64,000 bases of DNA from contig NKIY01000004.1 of assembly GCA_002256345.1 (NCBI GenBank), positions 513,876 to 577,875 on the forward strand, read 5' to 3'. Positions 46,607 through 56,721 of this stretch are shown here, in pieces. Below the pieces are notes generated by a model. That model was not told the DNA's origin. It saw only the letters and a list, made by a program, of their open reading frames with translations, and did no database searches. The position numbers were made by a program, and so were the translations under genes. The stretch is from Bradyrhizobiaceae bacterium PARB1 (lineage in GTDB: Bacteria > Pseudomonadota > Alphaproteobacteria > Rhizobiales > Xanthobacteraceae). Each line of letters opens with the position of its first letter. Positions within the stretch are counted from its first letter, which is position 1.

Positions 46607-47073
46607 AACCCTGTGTGTTCTGTGAATCCCTGTGGAGCTTTTCGCCCTGTTTGGCGGCGATGGCGAGGCGGCCGGGATAAGCCGGATTTTTCTTCACAGC
46701 CCTGCCTGCGGGGATACCGTCCGGCGATACCCGCCATGATAATGGGGTTATGTGAATTTGTCTCTCCGGAATCCCGGCTGGACGCGCGATAAGTCCCTGC
46801 GCTGGCGGTCTTTGTCGATGGCAAGATGACTCGCGGAAGATTCAGATCGCCATGTGCACAAGCATGGGACAATGCGGGGACAGGATTGTGCCGGCCAAAT
46901 CCACGGTCAATCAGACTCAAACCTTAAGAATCTAATAATAGATTTGAGGAAGAGGGCGCGTGCGAATAGAGCGGGGATCACCGCATCGATCGCGCTTGCG
47001 GAGCGACAGCGATCCCGGGCAGATGTTCCCCATCGAAACCCCACGCCCTCTTGATAAAGAGCAAGGCTTAGCA
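46607..47073. other. Candidate chromosomal replication origin (oriC)
   Basis: A 467 bp gap between divergent ppsR and hemJ, the place of the Caulobacter origin. It holds degenerate DnaA-box-like sites: TGTGTGTTC, TGTGAATCC and TGTGGAGCT phased every 9-10 bp from 46612, TTCTTCACA (46690-46698), TGTGAATTT (46751-46759) and TGTGCACAA (46853-46861). An AT-rich stretch (46916-46948) with a hairpin AATCTA-ATAA-TAGATT could be an unwinding element, and TTAA-N7-ATAA (46924-46938) resembles a CtrA site. Genes on both sides read away from it. No perfect TTATCCACA is present, so the call rests on synteny and orientation. Confidence 0.6.
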
Positions 47074-47496
47074 ATGTATGAATGGGCGAAGGCTCTGCAC
47101 ATCATCGCCGTCATCTCCTGGATGGCGGGCATGCTCTATCTGCCAAGGCTGTTCGTCTATCACTGCGATGCGGAGATCGGATCGAAGCAATCCGAGACCT
47201 TCAAGGTGATGGAGCGTCGGCTGCTCAAGGCGATCATCAATCCGGCGATGATCGCCACCTGGATTCTTGGCCTCTATCTCGCGTGGTCTGCAGGTTGGTT
47301 CACCTCTGGCTGGTTTCACGCAAAACTGTTGCTGGTGCTGCTGATGTCCGGCGTCCATGGCTTCCTGTCCGCCCGCGTGCGCGACTTCGCCCTCGACCGC
47401 AACACGCGAAGTGCGAAATTCTACAAGATTATCAATGAGGTGCCGACCGTCCTCATGATCCTGATCGTGATTCTGGTGGTGGTGAAGCCGTTCTGA
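47074..47496 (+). CDS. hemJ: Protoporphyrinogen IX oxidase HemJ
   Basis: 140 residues from the ATG at 47074, with AAGG upstream. Four membrane helices. The N-terminal helix YEWAKALHIIAVISWMAGMLYLPRLFVYH carries the conserved His and Arg that are thought to bind heme, and the second half contains FKVMERRLLKAIINPAMI and a conserved GVHGFLSARVRDFA. It oxidises protoporphyrinogen IX in heme synthesis. hemE, next to the origin in Caulobacter, is absent here. Confidence 0.94.
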   Translation: MYEWAKALHIIAVISWMAGMLYLPRLFVYHCDAEIGSKQSETFKVMERRLLKAIINPAMIATWILGLYLAWSAGWFTSGWFHAKLLLVLLMSGVHGFLSARVRDFALDRNTRSAKFYKIINEVPTVLMILIVILVVVKPF

Positions 47497-49074: not shown

Positions 49075-49102
49075 GGCCGCGCCTCATGGTGCGGCCTTTT
49101 TT
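49075..49102 (+). terminator. Intrinsic terminator after rho
   Basis: GGCCGC (49075-49080) pairs with GCGGCC (49091-49096), extended by a G-U pair, and is followed by TTTTTTG. It lies 26 nt after the rho stop. Confidence 0.88.
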
Positions 49103-49192
49103 GTAGCCCGGGTGGAGCGCAGCATAACCTGGGAGCCAGCGTTTCAGCTATCTCGACATCCCCGGATTACGCTGCACTTCATCCGGGCTACA
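49102..49192. repeat. Intergenic palindromic repeat, family D
   Basis: A 91 bp element with ends TGTAGCCCGGGTG and CATCCGGGCTACA and inner arms GGAGCGCAGC and GCTGCACTTC. It lies between the rho terminator and mnmE and ends 8 bp before the mnmE start. Confidence 0.85.
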
Positions 49193-49199
49193 ATGAGCC

Positions 49200-50525
49200 A
49201 TGCATCAGCGCGATCAGACTATTTACGCACTCTCCTCCGGCCGGCCGCCGACCGCGATCGCCATCGTGCGTGTGTCGGGTCCGCAGGCCGGCGTCGTACT
49301 CGAATGCCTGGCAAAGAAACTGCCGATACCGCGAATGGCTACCCATGTGCTGCTCGCCGACGACAAGCTTGGCCCAATCGACGATGCCGTGGTGCTCTGG
49401 TTTCCTGCGCCCGCCAGCGCCACCGGCGAGGACGTCGCCGAATTCCACATCCATGGTGGCCGCGCCGTTCTTGCTTCGCTGTTCGAAGCACTCGCCGCCA
49501 TCCCGGGCTTGCGGCCGGCCGAACCCGGCGAATTCACCCGTCGCGCTTTCGAGAATGGCAAACTCGATCTCACCGAGGCTGAAGGGCTCGACGATCTCAT
49601 CCATGCGGATACCGATCGCCAGCGCAAACAGGCGCTGCGCCAGCTCAAGGGCCTGCTTGGCGACAAGGCGCGTAACTGGCGTCAGCAGATCATCGAGGCC
49701 TTGGCGCTGGTCGAAGTGGGCATCGATTTCTCCGATGAAGGCGATGTCTCCGCCGAGCTGATGGCGCCAGCACTGGAAAAAGCCGATGCGCTTCGTCGCG
49801 AGATCGAGCAGGTGCTCTCGGCGCAAGGCCGCAGCGAACGTCTCCGCGATGGCGTCGTCGTCGCGATTGCCGGCCAGCCTAATGTCGGCAAATCGACCTT
49901 GATGAACCAGCTTACCCGCCGCGATGTTGCGATCGTCTCGCCGCACGCAGGGACCACGCGGGACGTCATCGAGGTACAGCTCGACCTGGATGGTTACCCC
50001 GTGACGGTGATCGACACCGCTGGCATCCGCGAAACGGTAGATCCGGTGGAGGAGGAGGGCGTCCGCCGAGCCCGCACCCGCGCCGGCGAAGCGGACCTCG
50101 TTTTGTGGCTGGTGGATTCCATCAACGCGGCCCGGCCCGAAGACTGGCTCAAGGATAGTGACGTGCCGGTCTGGATCGTCCGGACGAAGACCGACGTCAC
50201 CATCTCCGGATCGGACGATGCCATCCTCTCGATTTCCGCCGAGCGCGGCGACGGCATGGGCGAGCTGATGTCGGCGCTGGTCGATTTTGCATCCCGGTAT
50301 TTCGGGCAGGGCGAGGCCGGCTTCATCACTCGCGACAGACAACGTGATTTGTTGCGTCGCACAATGGAGTTGCTGCGGCATGCCGCAATATCGGCGCAGC
50401 ACGGCGATGAATTGGTCGCGGAAGATTTGCGCGCTGCGGCGCATCAGCTCGGGCGTTTGCTCGGGCGGGTGGACGTGGAAGATGTGCTCGATAGCATATT
50501 TAGGGATTTTTGCATAGGAAAGTAA
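49200..50525 (+). CDS. mnmE: tRNA modification GTPase MnmE
   Basis: 441 residues. With MnmG it makes the 5-carboxymethylaminomethyl group on wobble uridine. The N-terminal THF-binding domain has [16 protein letters not shown] and [20 protein letters not shown]; the inserted GTPase has G1 [13 protein letters not shown] and G3 DTAGIRET; the C-terminus ends CIGK with the conserved Cys. The G4 position reads RTKTD instead of the usual NKxD. mnmG follows after 224 bp containing two parS sites and a repeat. Confidence 0.97.
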
Positions 50526-50540
50526 TTATTCCTATTATAG

Positions 50541-50556
50541 TGTTTCACGTGAAACA
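50541..50556. other. parS site 1
   Basis: A perfect TGTTTCACGTGAAACA palindrome, the ParB-binding consensus. It lies 15 bp after the mnmE stop. Confidence 0.97.
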
Positions 50557-50563
50557 TGAACTC

Positions 50564-50662
50564 GTGGGATGGGTTGAGCATAGGCATGTGACGCCGGAGC
50601 GATATCCATAACGACCGGTGTGAAATGGTGATGGGTATCGATCCGCTCAACCCATCCTACGG
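50564..50662. repeat. Intergenic palindromic repeat, family E, copy 1
   Basis: Runs from GTGGGATGGGTTGAGC to GCTCAACCCATCCTACG, with near-exact inverted ends. It is placed between two parS sites. Copy 2 is at 55678-55783. Confidence 0.8.
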
Positions 50663-50680
50663 CATCAGTGTTCCTTCCGC

Positions 50681-50696
50681 TGTTTCACGTGAAACA
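50681..50696. other. parS site 2
   Basis: A perfect TGTTTCACGTGAAACA, 140 bp from site 1 and 54 bp before the mnmG start, so ParB bound here could affect mnmG transcription. Confidence 0.97.
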
Positions 50697-50749
50697 CCCC
50701 TTCCGATTCTCCTTCAAACTTGTCCACAGCCGCGCTAGAAGCTGCGGCC

Positions 50750-52624
50750 ATGCAAAACAAGTTTGATGTCATCGTCATTGGTGGAGGGCACGCCGGCTGT
50801 GAGGCTGCGGCTGCGGCAGCGCGCATAGGCGCGCGCACCGCGCTGGTCACGCATAAGTTCGCCACCATTGGCGCGATGTCCTGCAACCCGGCGATCGGCG
50901 GTCTCGGCAAGGGACATCTGGTCCGTGAGGTCGATGCGCTTGATGGGTTGATGGGCCGCGTCGCCGATGCTGGTGGCATCCAGTTCCGGATGCTCAATCG
51001 CAAGAAAGGCCCGGCCGTTCGTGGACCGCGGACCCAGGCCGACCGCAAGCTCTATGCCGCTGCGATGCAAGCGGCGATCACGGCTACCGGAAATCTCAGC
51101 GTGATTGAAGGCGAGGCCGATAATCTCCTGACGGCTAATGGGCGCATCACCGGCATCCGACTAGCCGATGGCCGCGAGCTGTTGGCCGCTGCGGTGGTCA
51201 TCACCACCGGTACCTTCCTCCGCGGCTTGATCCATCTTGGCGAGAAAAACTGGCCTGCCGGCCGCATCGACGAGGCACCGGCGCTTGGCCTGTCCAACGC
51301 GTTCGAGCGGATCGGTTTCACCCTCGGCCGTCTCAAGACCGGTACCCCACCACGCCTCGACGGCAAGACCATTGATTGGTCTGCCGTGGAGATGCAGGCG
51401 GCGGACGATCCGCCGGAGCCGTTCTCGGTGATGACCGACCGGATCACCACACCACAGATCCAGTGCGGCATCACCCGCACCACGCGGGCCACCCATGAGG
51501 TGATCCGCGCCAACGTACATCGCTCGCCGATGTATTCCGGCCAGATCAAGAGCTCCGGCCCTCGCTATTGCCCGTCCATAGAAGACAAGATTGTCCGCTT
51601 CGGCGATCGCGACGGTCACCAGATCTTCCTGGAGCCCGAAGGCCTCGACGACGACACTGTCTATCCCAATGGTATCTCCACCTCGCTTCCGGAAGAAGTT
51701 CAGGCTGCGATCCTCGCTTCGATCCCCGGTCTTGAGCGGGTCCGGATGATCCGGCCGGGCTATGCCATCGAATACGATTACGTCGATCCCCGCGAACTCG
51801 AGCCGACCCTTCAGGCCAAGCAGATGCCGGGTCTCTTCTTGGCCGGGCAGATCAATGGCACCACCGGTTATGAAGAGGCTGCTGCCCAGGGTCTGGTGGC
51901 TGGTCTGAACGCTGCGCTTTCGGCTTCTGGCTCGGCGCCGGCGGTATTCGATCGCGCCGATGGCTATCTCGGTGTGATGATCGACGATCTGGTCACCCGC
52001 GGCATCTCCGAACCCTATCGAATGTTCACCTCGCGGGCCGAATATCGCCTGACTCTCCGTGCCGACAATGCGGATCAGCGCCTGACCGATAAGGGTATCG
52101 CCCTTGGCTGTATCGGCAGCGCCCGTATTGCCCGCCACACCACGAAGATGGATGCGCTCTCCACGGGCAAAGCGCTGGCGAAGGCGTTGTCGATCACTCC
52201 GAACGAGGCCGCGAAGCACGGTCTCGCCCTTAATCACGACGGTCAGCGCCGCTCTGCCTTCGATCTCCTGTCCTATCCCGAGACCGAATGGGCCACCGTG
52301 ACCCGAATCTGGCCTGAACTCTCGTCCATTGACCCAGCTATCGGGACCCATATCGAGATCGACGCCAAATACGATGTCTATCTCAAGCGCCAGACCGCCG
52401 ATGTGGAAGCTTTCCGCCGTGATGAAGGTCTGTCGCTGACCGATGTCGATTACGACGTGGTCTCCGGGCTCTCAAATGAGGCTCGTGCCAAGCTGAAGGC
52501 TGCTTCGCCGCGTACAGTGGGGCAGGCAGGCCGTCTGGATGGTGTTACACCGGCGGCTCTCGCGATCCTGACGGCTTATCTGCGCCGAGAAGCGCGCAAG
52601 ACGGCAGCGATCGGCGTGGCGTGA
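50750..52624 (+). CDS. mnmG: tRNA uridine 5-carboxymethylaminomethyl modification enzyme MnmG (GidA)
   Basis: 624 residues from the ATG at 50750; a TTG ten codons upstream is in frame but would add non-family residues. The FAD-binding fold is [49 protein letters not shown] carries the conserved Cys loop, and [19 protein letters not shown] is the C-terminal FAD motif. It works with MnmE. The order mnmE-mnmG-rsmG-parA-parB is the classic near-origin cluster. Confidence 0.98.
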
Positions 52625-52626
52625 TC

Positions 52627-52642
52627 TGTTTCACGTGAAACA
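52627..52642. other. parS site 3
   Basis: A perfect TGTTTCACGTGAAACA starting 3 bp after the mnmG stop. It also lies just beyond the stop of the leftward small membrane protein. Confidence 0.97.
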
Positions 52643-52648
52643 GACAGC

Positions 52649-52828
52649 CTAGGTCTCCTTCTTGCTGGACTCAGGTCGCGGCCAGAACGCGAGCGCCGCT
52701 ACCAACACTACAAACAGCGCTACGGCGACCATCACCTGAATGACGCTGAAATTAAGTGCGTCGCGGGATACGAAGAACGCCGTAATAGGCGCTGCTAGTA
52801 CCAGGAACAACCGAACGATCAGATCCAT
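52649..52828 (-). CDS. Small two-helix membrane protein, 59 residues
   Basis: Begins MDLIVRLFLVLAAPITAFFV and continues through a short polar turn (SRDALNFSV) into a second hydrophobic helix (about 30-49), ending in the charged tail WPRPESSKKET. GGAGG lies 9 nt before the ATG at 52828, one of the best ribosome binding sites in the region. Hydrophobic helices with a polar turn and a charged end are what a real small membrane protein shows. I do not recognise a family. It lies between parS sites 3 and 4, opposite in direction to mnmG and the GNAT gene. Confidence 0.72.
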   Translation of the reverse strand: MDLIVRLFLVLAAPITAFFVSRDALNFSVIQVMVAVALFVVLVAALAFWPRPESSKKET

Positions 52829-52936
52829 GGTTCACATCCTCCGAGGATGATCCATGATAACGGTGGTTCAGCCTGTTTTCATTGATGCGGCTCAAGTGAC
52901 GGACGGTGCGCTGGCTCCCAACGCAGTTCTCGGGTC

Positions 52937-52952
52937 GGTTTCACGTGAAACA
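52937..52952. other. parS site 4 (one mismatch)
   Basis: GGTTTCACGTGAAACA: the inner 14 bp are perfect and only the first base differs from consensus. It lies 16 bp before the chosen start of the GNAT gene, or within it (as VSRET) if translation begins at 52854. Confidence 0.9.
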
Positions 52953-52967
52953 TCGAGAGGGGATCCG

Positions 52968-53420
52968 ATGCTGGTTACGCGTCAAGCGGAAATGGGCGAT
53001 CTCCAGGAGCTGTTGTCGCTCTATCGGCACCTGACGCCCGATATGCCGGAGCTATCCGATGACCTAGCCGGGTGTCGCTGGCGTGAAATCCTTTCGGTGA
53101 AGCATGTCGCAGTGTTTGTCATCGAGGAAAAAAGCGTTCTGGTCGCGTCCTGCAGCCTGATCACGGCCCCAAATCTGATGCGAGGAGCGACACCTCATGG
53201 CTTTCTCGAGAATGTGGTGACCCATGCCGGCCATCGGCGTCAGGGATATGGGCGCGAAGTTGTCGTAGCCGGACTGGCAGAAGCCTGGGCAAGGGGATGT
53301 CAGCGGGTAATGCTGGTGACCGGCCGGATGCACCGCAATCCGGGGGTGACAGACTTCTATGAGAGCTGCGGGTTCATGTCCGGGCGGGCCGGGTTGATGG
53401 CCCAGCGGCCGAGTTCGTAG
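52968..53420 (+). CDS. GNAT family N-acetyltransferase
   Basis: 150 residues from the ATG at 52968, with AGAGGGG upstream; an ATG at 52854 would extend it by 38 residues. The acetyl-CoA site GHRRQGYGREVVVAGLAEAW fits the R/QxxGxG/A motif, and FLENVVTHAGHRRQG and VTDFYESCGFMSGR are typical strand-4 and C-terminal elements. The acceptor is unknown. It separates mnmG from rsmG, which are adjacent in many genomes. Confidence 0.88.
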   Translation: MLVTRQAEMGDLQELLSLYRHLTPDMPELSDDLAGCRWREILSVKHVAVFVIEEKSVLVASCSLITAPNLMRGATPHGFLENVVTHAGHRRQGYGREVVVAGLAEAWARGCQRVMLVTGRMHRNPGVTDFYESCGFMSGRAGLMAQRPSS

Positions 53421-53435
53421 TTATGGTCCTGCGGT

Positions 53436-53451
53436 TGTTTCATGTGAAACA
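53436..53451. other. parS site 5 (one mismatch)
   Basis: TGTTTCATGTGAAACA, with one change (C to T) near the centre. It lies between the convergent GNAT and MmcQ genes. Confidence 0.85.
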
Positions 53452-53454
53452 ACG

Positions 53455-53781
53455 CTACCGCTTCTTCCGTTGCGACGGCAACGCATGCCGCCATGCCATC
53501 TCCAACGCCGCAGCCAGATCGGTCTTGTTCAGCCTGGCCAGCACACACTGCGTCCAACCTTGCTGACCCCACGCATTGGGTACCGGTGAAAATGCTTCCG
53601 GCATGACCGTACATTTCAGGACCTGTTCGTCCGGGGTGAATTTAAAGTTTGCGGTGAGTCCATCGGCGGCCAAAGTGACGAAAGTCCGCTTCACCTTGAA
53701 TGCAGTTCGGTCGAAATGCGGGGCGGCGGTGACACCTTCAAGGGCGAGAGCAAGTTCGCGAAGCGACGATCCATTAGGCAT
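53455..53781 (-). CDS. MmcQ/YjbR family protein
   Basis: 108 residues. The pattern ALALEGVTAAPHFDRTAFKVKRTFVTLAAD, then ANFKFTPDEQVLKC and GWTQCVLARLNKTDLAAALEMAW, matches the small YjbR (double-wing) fold. The family is sometimes called DNA-binding, from structure alone. It lies between parS sites 5 and 6, on the strand opposite to its neighbours. Confidence 0.85.
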   Translation of the reverse strand: MPNGSSLRELALALEGVTAAPHFDRTAFKVKRTFVTLAADGLTANFKFTPDEQVLKCTVMPEAFSPVPNAWGQQGWTQCVLARLNKTDLAAALEMAWRHALPSQRKKR

Positions 53782-54081
53782 GAATATGTCCCAACTATCT
53801 GGGGCAGTGGATAGAGGGCAGGATGAATAAAGCTGTCGCAGGATGAGCAGGCAAACTCCGTATCCATCGACTTGAGACGGTGATGTCGCGCCTCCTCATC
53901 ATAAGCTCGGATTAGGATAGCTGGATTGCCGCCAGCTCGCAGCGAATGGGTACACGCTTCGTTATTGCTCTTCGAACTGTAGCGGACGGTCGCTAATCGG
54001 CTCTTCGACGGAGATCGACACCCCATTTCGATAGCCGCCGCCGTGGACTCGGCGTATGAGAAAGATCCTCCGTACAGAACA
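53782..54081. other. Gene-free region between MmcQ gene and rsmG
   Basis: 300 bp with lower GC in places than the flanking genes. Open frames on both strands cross it but have no good starts or family features. No repeat, RNA gene or parS site is seen. Confidence 0.4.
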
Positions 54082-54798
54082 ATGAAATCGCATTCCATGG
54101 CGCAACGTTCCCAGCCATCTGCTCCCGCCCCGCTACTCGATAGCGACAAAGCCGCTGCTTTGCGCCTGACCCCTGTTTCACGTGAAACAGAAGCGCGGCT
54201 TGATCGCTATGTGTCGCTGCTACTGCAGTGGCAGGCCAAGACCAATCTGATCTCACCGGCCACGCTTCCAAATCTCTGGACGCGCCATATCTCGGATTCG
54301 CTGCAGCTCTTGAGTTTGGCGCCCGATGCTCGCATCTGGCTCGACTTCGGCAGCGGCGGTGGTTTTCCCGGCGTGGTCCTGGCTTGTGCCATGGGCGATG
54401 TCGGCGGCCATGTTCATCTGGTCGAGCGCAACGCCAAAAAGGCGGCGTTCCTGCGCGAAGCATTGCGGGTAACGCAAGCCCCAGGTTCGGTGCACCTCGC
54501 TGACATCGGGGATAATGTGGATAGTTTCCCGGCGCGCGTCGATTGCATCACCGCACGCGCCGTAGCATCGCTAGAAATCATTCTCGGTTTCGCGGCTCCC
54601 CTGATGAAAGACGGTACCAAGGCGCTGTTTTTAAAGGGTCAAGATGTAGACGCAGAATTGACCGAAGCTACTAAATATTGGAATATAAGCCCACGCCTGC
54701 ATCCGAGCCTGACCGGCGGACAAGGCTGGATCGTTGAACTGGATCAGATCGCGCGGCGCGAACCGTCCGCAAACCCACGCATGGCTCACGCAAAATGA
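54082..54798 (+). CDS. rsmG: 16S rRNA G527 N7-methyltransferase (GidB)
   Basis: 238 residues from the ATG at 54082; starts at 54097 (ATG) and 54043 (GTG) are possible, and none has a strong Shine-Dalgarno sequence. It methylates G527 of 16S rRNA. LLLQWQAKTNLISPATLPNLWTRHISDSLQLL and the SAM loop WLDFGSGGGFPGVVLA are diagnostic. Near the N-terminus, PVSRETEARL is encoded by parS site 6, so this stretch serves protein and centromere at once. The stop overlaps parA by 4 bases. Confidence 0.96.
   Translation: MKSHSMAQRSQPSAPAPLLDSDKAAALRLTPVSRETEARLDRYVSLLLQWQAKTNLISPATLPNLWTRHISDSLQLLSLAPDARIWLDFGSGGGFPGVVLACAMGDVGGHVHLVERNAKKAAFLREALRVTQAPGSVHLADIGDNVDSFPARVDCITARAVASLEIILGFAAPLMKDGTKALFLKGQDVDAELTEATKYWNISPRLHPSLTGGQGWIVELDQIARREPSANPRMAHAK
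54174..54189. other. parS site 6, inside rsmG
   Basis: A perfect TGTTTCACGTGAAACA that encodes the VSRET residues of RsmG, about 30 codons into the gene. It is the parS closest to parAB. Confidence 0.97.
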
Positions 54799-55661
54799 CC
54801 GTCATTGATCAGGAATATCAAGAGGATAGCTCCAAAACACTGCCCGGCCATCCGCGCATCCTGGCGTTGGCCAATCAGAAGGGCGGCGTCGGAAAGACAA
54901 CCACTGCGATTAATCTTGGGACGGCGCTCGCGGCGATCGGCGAGCGTGTGCTGATCGTCGATCTCGATCCGCAGGGCAACGCCTCCACCGGCCTTGGCAT
55001 CGATCGCCGCGATCGCGCCTGCTCGACCTATGATGTGCTGATCGGCGAAGCGCCGCTGCGCGATGCGGTCGTGGTCACTGCCGTGCCACGCTTGCATATC
55101 GCCGCGTCGACCATGGATCTTTCAGGCCTCGAGCTCGAACTCGGTTCGGCCCGCGACCGCGCGTTTCGTCTGCGCGACGCTATCGGCGAGCTCAACAACA
55201 ATGTCTCGCCGGGCTCGGACTACACTTACGTGCTGATCGACTGCCCGCCGTCTCTCAATCTCCTCACCGTCAACGCGATGGCCGCGTCGGACGCGATCCT
55301 GGTGCCGTTGCAGTGTGAGTTCTTCGCGCTCGAAGGTCTGTCGCAATTGCTGCAGACGGTGGAGCAGGTGCGTTCGACGCTGAACCCCAACCTGACCATC
55401 CACGGCATCGTGATGACCATGTTCGATGCGCGCAACAACCTGTCCAACCAGGTCGTCGCCGATGTGCGCGAATTCATGGGCAGCAAAGTCTACGACACCA
55501 TGATCCCGCGCAATGTCCGCATTTCGGAAGCGCCGTCCTATGGCAAGCCGGTGCTGGTCTATGACCTGAAGTGCGCCGGCTCGGAAGCCTATCTGCGCCT
55601 CGCCACCGAAGTGATTCAGCGCGAGCGCGACATCCGCGCGGCGCCGGGCGACGCGGCGTAA
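54795..55661 (+). CDS. parA: Chromosome partitioning ATPase ParA
   Basis: 288 residues. The deviant Walker A is ANQKGGVGKTTTAINLG, Walker A' is VLIVDLDPQGNASTGLG and Walker B is YVLIDCPPSLNLLT. ATP-bound ParA dimers coat the nucleoid and draw ParB-parS complexes to the pole. The ATG overlaps the rsmG stop (ATGA). parB follows after 151 bp, most of it a family E repeat, so the usual tight parA-parB spacing is lost. Confidence 0.97.
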   Translation: MTVIDQEYQEDSSKTLPGHPRILALANQKGGVGKTTTAINLGTALAAIGERVLIVDLDPQGNASTGLGIDRRDRACSTYDVLIGEAPLRDAVVVTAVPRLHIAASTMDLSGLELELGSARDRAFRLRDAIGELNNNVSPGSDYTYVLIDCPPSLNLLTVNAMAASDAILVPLQCEFFALEGLSQLLQTVEQVRSTLNPNLTIHGIVMTMFDARNNLSNQVVADVREFMGSKVYDTMIPRNVRISEAPSYGKPVLVYDLKCAGSEAYLRLATEVIQRERDIRAAPGDAA

Positions 55662-55677: not shown

Positions 55678-55783
55678 CGTAGGATGGGTAGAGCGCAGGC
55701 GCACCGCGCCGGAGCGAAACCCATCGGCGGAGTTTGCCGTAACGACGGGATGATGGGTTTCGCTGCGCTCTACCCATCCTACG
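55678..55783. repeat. Intergenic palindromic repeat, family E, copy 2
   Basis: A 106 bp element with ends CGTAGGATGGGTAGAGCGCA and TGCGCTCTACCCATCCTACG, an exact 20 bp inverted pair. It lies between parA and parB. Confidence 0.92.
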
Positions 55784-55812: not shown

Positions 55813-56721
55813 ATGAGTTCGAGGGGATTGGCGATGGCCGATGAAGCGCGTTCGCGGTTGGGCCGCGGTCTGGCAAGTCTGATCGGCGATGTCGGTGGCG
55901 AAGCCGCGCAAACCGAGCGGCCGGCGCGCGCGCAGCGCAAGGTGCCGATCGAATTCATCAAGCCCAATCCGCGCAACCCGCGTCGCACCTTTGCCGATGC
56001 GGAGCTGAATGAGCTCGCTGCTTCGATCAAGCAGCATGGCGTGATCCAGCCGATCGTGGTGCGTCCGGTGAAGGGCGCGCATGATCGCTTCGAGATCATC
56101 GCCGGCGAACGGCGCTGGCGCGCGTCGCAGCTGGCTGGTCTGCATGAAGTGCCGATCGTACCGGTGGACGTGACCGATGCCGCGGCGATGGAAATCGCCA
56201 TCATCGAGAACGTGCAGCGTGAAGACCTCAATGCGATGGAAGAGGCTCAAGGTTATCACGCGCTCGCTGAGACCTATAAACACAGCCAGGACGAGATCGC
56301 GAAGATCGTCGGCAAGAGCCGCAGCCATGTCGCCAACATGATGCGCCTCACCAAACTGCCGGAAGATGTGCAAGCGCTGATCGCGTCGAACCAGCTCTCC
56401 AACGGTCATGCCCGTGCGCTGATCTCGCTGCCAGATCCCTCCGCGGCTGCGAAGCGCGTGGTCGCCGAAGGTTTGAGCGTGCGCCAGACCGAAGCGCTTG
56501 CCCATGAAGAGGGTGTGCCGGAACGCGCGCCGCAAAAGCCGCGCGCCGGCTCGGCGCCGAAGGTCGCGAAGGATGCCGACACCATCGCGCTGGAAAAGCG
56601 TCTGAGCGATGCGCTCGGCCTGCAGGTGAGCGTCGATCACCGCGATCCCGGTGGAGCCGTGATGATCAAGTATCGCGATCTCGATCAGCTCGACGAGATT
56701 TTGAAGCGGCTGGATAAGTGA
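55813..56721 (+). CDS. parB: Chromosome partitioning protein ParB
   Basis: 302 residues from the ATG at 55813, with GGAG 8 nt upstream; an internal ATG at 55834 is an alternative. The short N-terminal helix RSRLGRGLASLIGD binds and stimulates ParA. The CTP-binding clamp domain has IKPNPRNPRRTF and IAGERRWRASQLAG, the HTH region is SQDEIAKIVGKSRSHVANMMRL, and the C-terminal dimerisation part ends LDEILKRLDK. It should load at the six parS sites listed and slide outward. Confidence 0.97.
   Translation: MSSRGLAMADEARSRLGRGLASLIGDVGGEAAQTERPARAQRKVPIEFIKPNPRNPRRTFADAELNELAASIKQHGVIQPIVVRPVKGAHDRFEIIAGERRWRASQLAGLHEVPIVPVDVTDAAAMEIAIIENVQREDLNAMEEAQGYHALAETYKHSQDEIAKIVGKSRSHVANMMRLTKLPEDVQALIASNQLSNGHARALISLPDPSAAAKRVVAEGLSVRQTEALAHEEGVPERAPQKPRAGSAPKVAKDADTIALEKRLSDALGLQVSVDHRDPGGAVMIKYRDLDQLDEILKRLDK

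Follow-up and report, generated by a model that had tools for sequence, protein, structure and literature searches.

The primary parS cluster of the PARB1 chromosome

A 64,000-nucleotide stretch of contig NKIY01000004.1 from Bradyrhizobiaceae bacterium PARB1 (referred to here as the window) carries six copies of the 16-bp palindrome TGTTTCACGTGAAACA close to parA and parB, and the question raised by this locus is whether these copies are the parS sites at which the chromosome is partitioned. From comparison of the sequences, it is almost certain that these copies make up the primary parS cluster of the chromosome of this alphaproteobacterium, i.e. an ordinary centromere near the replication origin, because they are exclusive to the locus, lie at the minimum of GC skew, stand beside parAB and share their layout with the remainder of the genus.

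A search of the window with up to three mismatches returned six matches, against a chance expectation of 0.11 matches per window calculated from 100 dinucleotide shuffles, none of which reached six. Four copies are exact (sites 1, 2, 3 and 6, at 50541–50556, 50681–50696, 52627–52642 and 54174–54189), and two have a single mismatch, located at the outermost base of site 4 (GGTTTCACGTGAAACA, 52937–52952) and near the centre of site 5 (TGTTTCATGTGAAACA, 53436–53451). All six copies described in the original prediction, which had been made from the letters of the stretch, were recovered at their positions by this search. The genome-wide count of the 16-mer that had been proposed with it was also conducted (6,953,485 bases, 32 contigs), and revealed that the six sites of the window are the only matches with two mismatches or fewer. 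At three mismatches, seven more places appear in the genome, which can be regarded as background (13 matches in total, compared to 11 for a reversed-pattern control).

Sites 1 and 2 are both in the gap between mnmE and mnmG (50525 to approximately 50750), and the cluster extends from there to rsmG; the spread from mnmG to rsmG that had been described is accordingly correct at the rsmG end, while its start does not lie inside mnmG. Site 3 directly follows the mnmG stop codon, site 4 ends 15 bases ahead of the likely start codon of a GNAT acetyltransferase gene (52968), and site 5 is between the GNAT and YjbR genes. Site 6 is the only one within a conserved gene, where it overlaps the part of rsmG that encodes P V S R E T. 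Start-to-start distances between successive sites are 140, 1946, 310, 499 and 738 bases, in agreement with the uneven spacing noted previously. The special value that had been attached to this spacing for modelling of ParB clamp loading is unsupported, however, because the spacing differs from one species to another and because a dispersed palindromic repeat fills 99 of the 124 bases that separate sites 1 and 2.

The cumulative GC skew reaches its minimum at window position 52,399, inside the cluster, in the 366 kb that were examined of the 726-kb contig; the skew of the window by itself was too noisy to be of use. Immediately downstream of rsmG are parA and parB, the latter encoding a protein with all three ParB domains (N-terminal, helix-turn-helix and dimerisation). 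Alignment places R173 and G201 in this protein (Caulobacter numbering), which are the parS-type specificity residues at positions that separate parS from NBS (Noc-binding site) specificity in ParB and Noc (PMC7383237). The locus therefore has sequence features of a chromosomal ParABS cluster, namely a 16-bp palindrome, clustering of its copies at the GC-skew minimum, and parA together with a parB that has parS-type residues. Along with the exclusivity of the sites in the genome and the anchors conserved in the genus, these features bear out the chromosomal centromere beside parAB that had been proposed at the outset. ParB (55813–56721) would load as a cytidine triphosphate-dependent clamp at each palindrome, and the loaded clamps would slide onto flanking DNA to give a partition complex that would be moved by ParA and would load SMC; binding, clamp loading and the actions of ParA and SMC are all expected from known ParB biology.

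Conservation of the cluster

The genus comprises 13 genomes in the set examined, including that of the window, each with two to six parS sites at one mismatch or fewer. Mapping of the 12 relatives (12 loci and one continuation contig, with anchors counted at up to two mismatches) revealed that all 12 have at least one site in the mnmE–mnmG gap, that 11 have a site equivalent to site 3 just past mnmG (it is absent in L034), and that all 12 have one within rsmG, as do 13 of 13 genomes when the window is counted. The spacing between sites varies from genome to genome. The housekeeping neighbours rho, mnmE, mnmG, rsmG, holA and leuS keep their order across the loci. The anchor within rsmG constrains the codons of that gene: at the codons for P V S R E, no third position varies among the 13 rows, compared to a mean conservation of 0.66 elsewhere, although this is support rather than proof, since three other five-codon windows of rsmG (two of them overlapping) score higher or equal. 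At greater distances, at least one parS with no more than one mismatch is present in 78 of 80 genomes of the family and in 285 of 297 genomes of the order.

The equally conserved rsmG windows are one of several observations that weigh against the assignment. The two single-mismatch sites, 4 and 5, have no counterpart in most relatives and may be weak or silent, the nearest parallels being a parS 14 bases ahead of GNAT in L031, which is the same site as the one behind mnmG, and a parS in a like place beside the end of YjbR in L030. Three relatives each have one off-cluster parS with one mismatch, and two genomes of the family have no parS at this threshold. The GC-skew analysis covered only half of the contig, and the origin is placed only roughly: TTATNCACA, the DnaA box, does not occur in the window, and relaxed DnaA-like boxes form neither a cluster nor a dense array. 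It was because these searches gave no array that the origin was located by GC skew.

Could the palindromes instead act on transcription of mnmG, GNAT and rsmG, as terminators or operators? Five of the six sites are intergenic and near the ends or starts of genes, as would be expected of such elements. However, one site lies within rsmG in every genome of the genus, four of the six retain the exact 16-mer, which is more than a stem would require, the genome holds no further copy at two mismatches or fewer, and parAB adjoins the sites, and so this explanation is very improbable. It is also conceivable that the cluster is part of a plasmid that has integrated, or of a secondary replicon. ParABS systems occur on plasmids too, and a search of this genome for ParB_N proteins returned seven hits, this ParB included. 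Against this, the order of the housekeeping neighbours is kept throughout the genus and the GC-skew minimum falls at this locus, leaving an origin from a plasmid or second replicon with a negligible probability.

The primary chromosomal cluster has a close parallel in the ParABS system of Caulobacter crescentus, where a native cluster of sites, parS1-7, at which ParB nucleates lies approximately 8 kb from ori (PMC5815017). The window differs in the number of sites, in having one site within rsmG, and in having parAB directly adjoining the cluster. The window cluster provides a clean reference for placement of parS in the family, including the codon-freezing site in rsmG, and when used as a yardstick it exposed a genus in which parS is distributed genome-wide.

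Dispersed parS sites in a sister genus

In a survey of the 80 family genomes at up to one mismatch, the metagenome-assembled genome (MAG) Rhizobiales bacterium 32-66-11 (G013) had 59 sites, whereas all others had between zero and six. With two mismatches permitted, G013 has 60 sites and MAG 24-66-13 (G089), its only congener in the set, has 42. A cluster over mnmE, mnmG and rsmG, beside parA, accounts for 12 of the G013 sites and 13 of those in G089. This enlarged centromere (L069:7581-11594 and L196:1575-5645, respectively) has 11 and 12 exact copies in the mnmE–mnmG gap plus one within rsmG, mostly flanked by AA and TT. The remaining 48 and 29 sites are outside the parAB cluster (L046-L060, L070-L128 and L179-L198), with positions obtained for 45 of the 48 and for 29 of 29.

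Among 731 genomes searched (G000 to G730), only G013 and G089 have more than nine sites; 351 of these were counted at zero mismatches (maximum seven), and their near copies were consequently unseen, while the rest were counted at up to one mismatch, and G013 and G089 also at up to two. When 84,980 species genomes were scanned for an exact parS joined to the tail motif described below, 40 stretches were returned, all in MAGs 32-66-11 and 24-66-13; in the examples that were compared, their positions match those in G013 and G089. Separately, G331 has four exact parS over four contigs and G386 five over three, perhaps reflecting several replicons or a milder dispersal.

The dispersed sites contradict the rule by which parS is confined to the vicinity of the origin. 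Caulobacter tolerates a second parS cluster mostly within approximately 500 kb of the native one, plus a small zone near ter (PMC5815017), and a review (PMC7333895) puts the tolerated zone at approximately 600 kb. Of the G013 contigs that bear dispersed sites, 29 sum to 1.25 Mb (as draft contigs, unordered relative to the terminus), which is larger than the Caulobacter zone of approximately 500 kb. The review also raises the question of why parS sites are clustered, and cites 20–23, near the origin, as high numbers. Among the titles and abstract openings listed in literature searches, none described scattered parS, parS in repeats, or the two MAGs.

Most of the off-cluster sites head a repeat of approximately 110–130 bp, comprising AAAA, parS, about five bases of lower conservation, the tail core TTAGCGCGGACGAA and some 80 less conserved bases. 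A search with the tail alone, in which copies were not chosen by their parS, gave at least 64 matches, with the query copy counted (G013, 40; G089, 24), the best 40 or fewer candidates being taken per genome, such that weaker tails devoid of parS may be missed. Among the tail matches listed, 61 of 64 have a parS (two mismatches or fewer) that is displaced by at most two bases from its expected place and one has it 14 bases further off, leaving a 33-base partial match in G013 (C101) and one match in G089 (C21) with none. The fetched loci hold 68 copies of the element, a set biased by being drawn largely from loci fetched for their parS, in which parS is exact in 56, has one mismatch in six and two mismatches in two, and is absent at the expected spacing in four. 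Mean column conservation is 0.993 for parS, 0.948 for the tail core and 0.796 for the first 60 tail bases, calculated over 61 rows that omit three copies shifted by one base and the four in which parS is absent at the expected spacing. Collinear partners in G013, with flanks 78–95% alike, were found for 14 of the 19 fetched G089 sites (one of them the rsmG site), and many of the places are therefore inherited.

The position of the element with respect to genes was examined in gaps of at least 100 bp. In 46 loci, called with a crude open reading frame finder and including one region present twice and some mutual orthologues, the context was convergent for 24 of 41 gaps with the element compared to 8 of 65 other gaps (Fisher p = 7e-7). 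The difference persisted in G013 only with repeats removed (18 of 32 compared to 6 of 50, p = 4e-5) and in G089 only (6 of 8 compared to 1 of 11, p = 0.006). Orientation of the element showed no bias relative to local GC skew (32 to 32). Rfam at gathering scores gave no match in five sister-genus loci, and no relatives of the element were found in plasmids; among phages, an Enterococcus phage gave the one match, which covers the first 29 bases of the element (AAAA, parS and the next nine). A role as a transcription terminator was rejected as the main cause of the element, because in tandem contexts the orientation that would place the T-run after the parS stem is the minority, by 5 to 12, because 8 of 64 copies are between divergent genes, and because the 16-mer is mostly letter-exact (56 of 64). 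Both copies of the element with a two-mismatch parS retain the palindrome.

Possible roles of the dispersed sites

The ParB encoded beside the cluster in G013 has R173, G201 and an N-terminal LGRGLAALIGD segment, which we take to be the ParA-contact motif. By these features the reader of the sites in G013 looks like an ordinary ParB and not Noc, where the typing covers the cluster ParB; both genomes encode additional ParB_N proteins, and the G089 ParB is cut at the end of a contig. The Noc and NBS signature was likewise not found in the sister genus, where the G013 cluster protein has R173 and G201 as opposed to Q173 and R201, and the sites are parS. There is a resemblance to the Noc/NBS system of Firmicutes, in which near-parS palindromes are spread over the chromosome (PMC7383237), but the sister genus has exact parS, a ParB that retains the residues and segment above, and sites mostly placed at the head of a repeat, the tail of which is conserved. 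ParB at many off-origin places is also a feature of half-parS binding in Pseudomonas aeruginosa (PMC7022226), although the sites there are heptamer half-sites that are common in genomes, as opposed to full palindromes in a conserved element.

There is perhaps an even chance that ParB of the sister genus has two jobs, served on the one hand by the enlarged centromere of 12–13 sites around mnmE and rsmG, and on the other by some 30–50 selectively maintained parS sites distributed chromosome-wide, mainly between convergent genes. The dispersed sites would then load ParB clamps across the whole chromosome, and the conserved tail could feasibly recruit another factor, one that restricts sliding or prevents the action of ParA or SMC. 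Such an arrangement would amount to a nucleoid-occlusion or chromosome-folding system run by an ordinary ParB, perhaps in place of MipZ. Full-length MipZ is present in the genome of the window (374 bits) and was not found in G013 or G089, where the best matches score 36 and 41.5 bits, albeit with no family baseline and with G089 79% complete. This contrast suggests, without proving, that control of the division site may be a function of the dispersed ParB.

Alternatively, the element may be a selfish repeat in which parS is present by chance, or may have a structural role unrelated to division. The limits given above for the tail search, the set of 68 copies, the conservation rows, the MipZ comparison and the gene-context counts all weigh against a dispersed ParB system, as does the fact that G013 and G089 are draft genomes with scaffold names that share a date stamp. 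If the two-job ParB is real, the genus would be a natural exception that shows how a cell escapes the limit on parS placement, and would show whether the task of Noc can be performed by ParB.

Gene surroundings of the window cluster

Genes at the locus run in the order RP001 (minus strand), hemJ, rho, mnmE, sites 1 and 2, mnmG, site 3, a small membrane-like gene (minus), site 4, GNAT, site 5, YjbR (minus), rsmG with site 6, parA, parB, holA (minus) and leuS (minus). Pfam families were assigned to ten proteins of the locus; the names of leuS, holA and the small membrane-like gene are provisional, having been given by eye. On the plus strand are mnmE (49200–50525; MnmE_helical and TrmE_N), mnmG, also known as gidA (50750–52624, with an approximate start; GIDA), and the GNAT gene (52968–53420; Acetyltransf_1), which is variable within the genus and present in 2 of 12 relatives. 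The minus strand holds the small membrane-like gene (52649–52828), the 59-residue product of which has tblastn matches in 8 of 12 relatives (seven full and one partial), and the YjbR-like gene (53455–53781; YjbR), again variable and present in 3 of 12. The plus-strand genes rsmG, also known as gidB (54097–54798; GidB), parA (54795–55661; AAA_31 and CbiA) and parB (ParB_N, HTH_ParB and ParB_C) follow. A second unusually conserved codon stretch occurs in rsmG at 54634–54672 (codons ~180–192, encoding KGQDV and ELTEAT).

The gap between RP001 and hemJ (46607–47076), in which 155 of 470 columns are invariant in 12 rows, is a candidate for the replication origin, by analogy to the neighbourhood of the Caulobacter origin. 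DnaA-like boxes are not enriched in this gap. Rfam at gathering scores gave no match in the window.

A dispersed repeat of palindromic form occurs twice at the locus. The copy between parA and parB (55678–55783) is an inverted repeat with arms of 21 nt that are 100% identical, and has at least 43 matches in the genome, itself counted. The copy between sites 1 and 2 (50563–50661) is akin to it, being 71% alike over its full length; it is absent among the matches listed for the 55678–55783 query, yet is 77% alike to one of them (G000:C11:656267). A further inverted repeat, with arms of 33 nt that are 82% alike, lies directly upstream of mnmE at 49101–49193.

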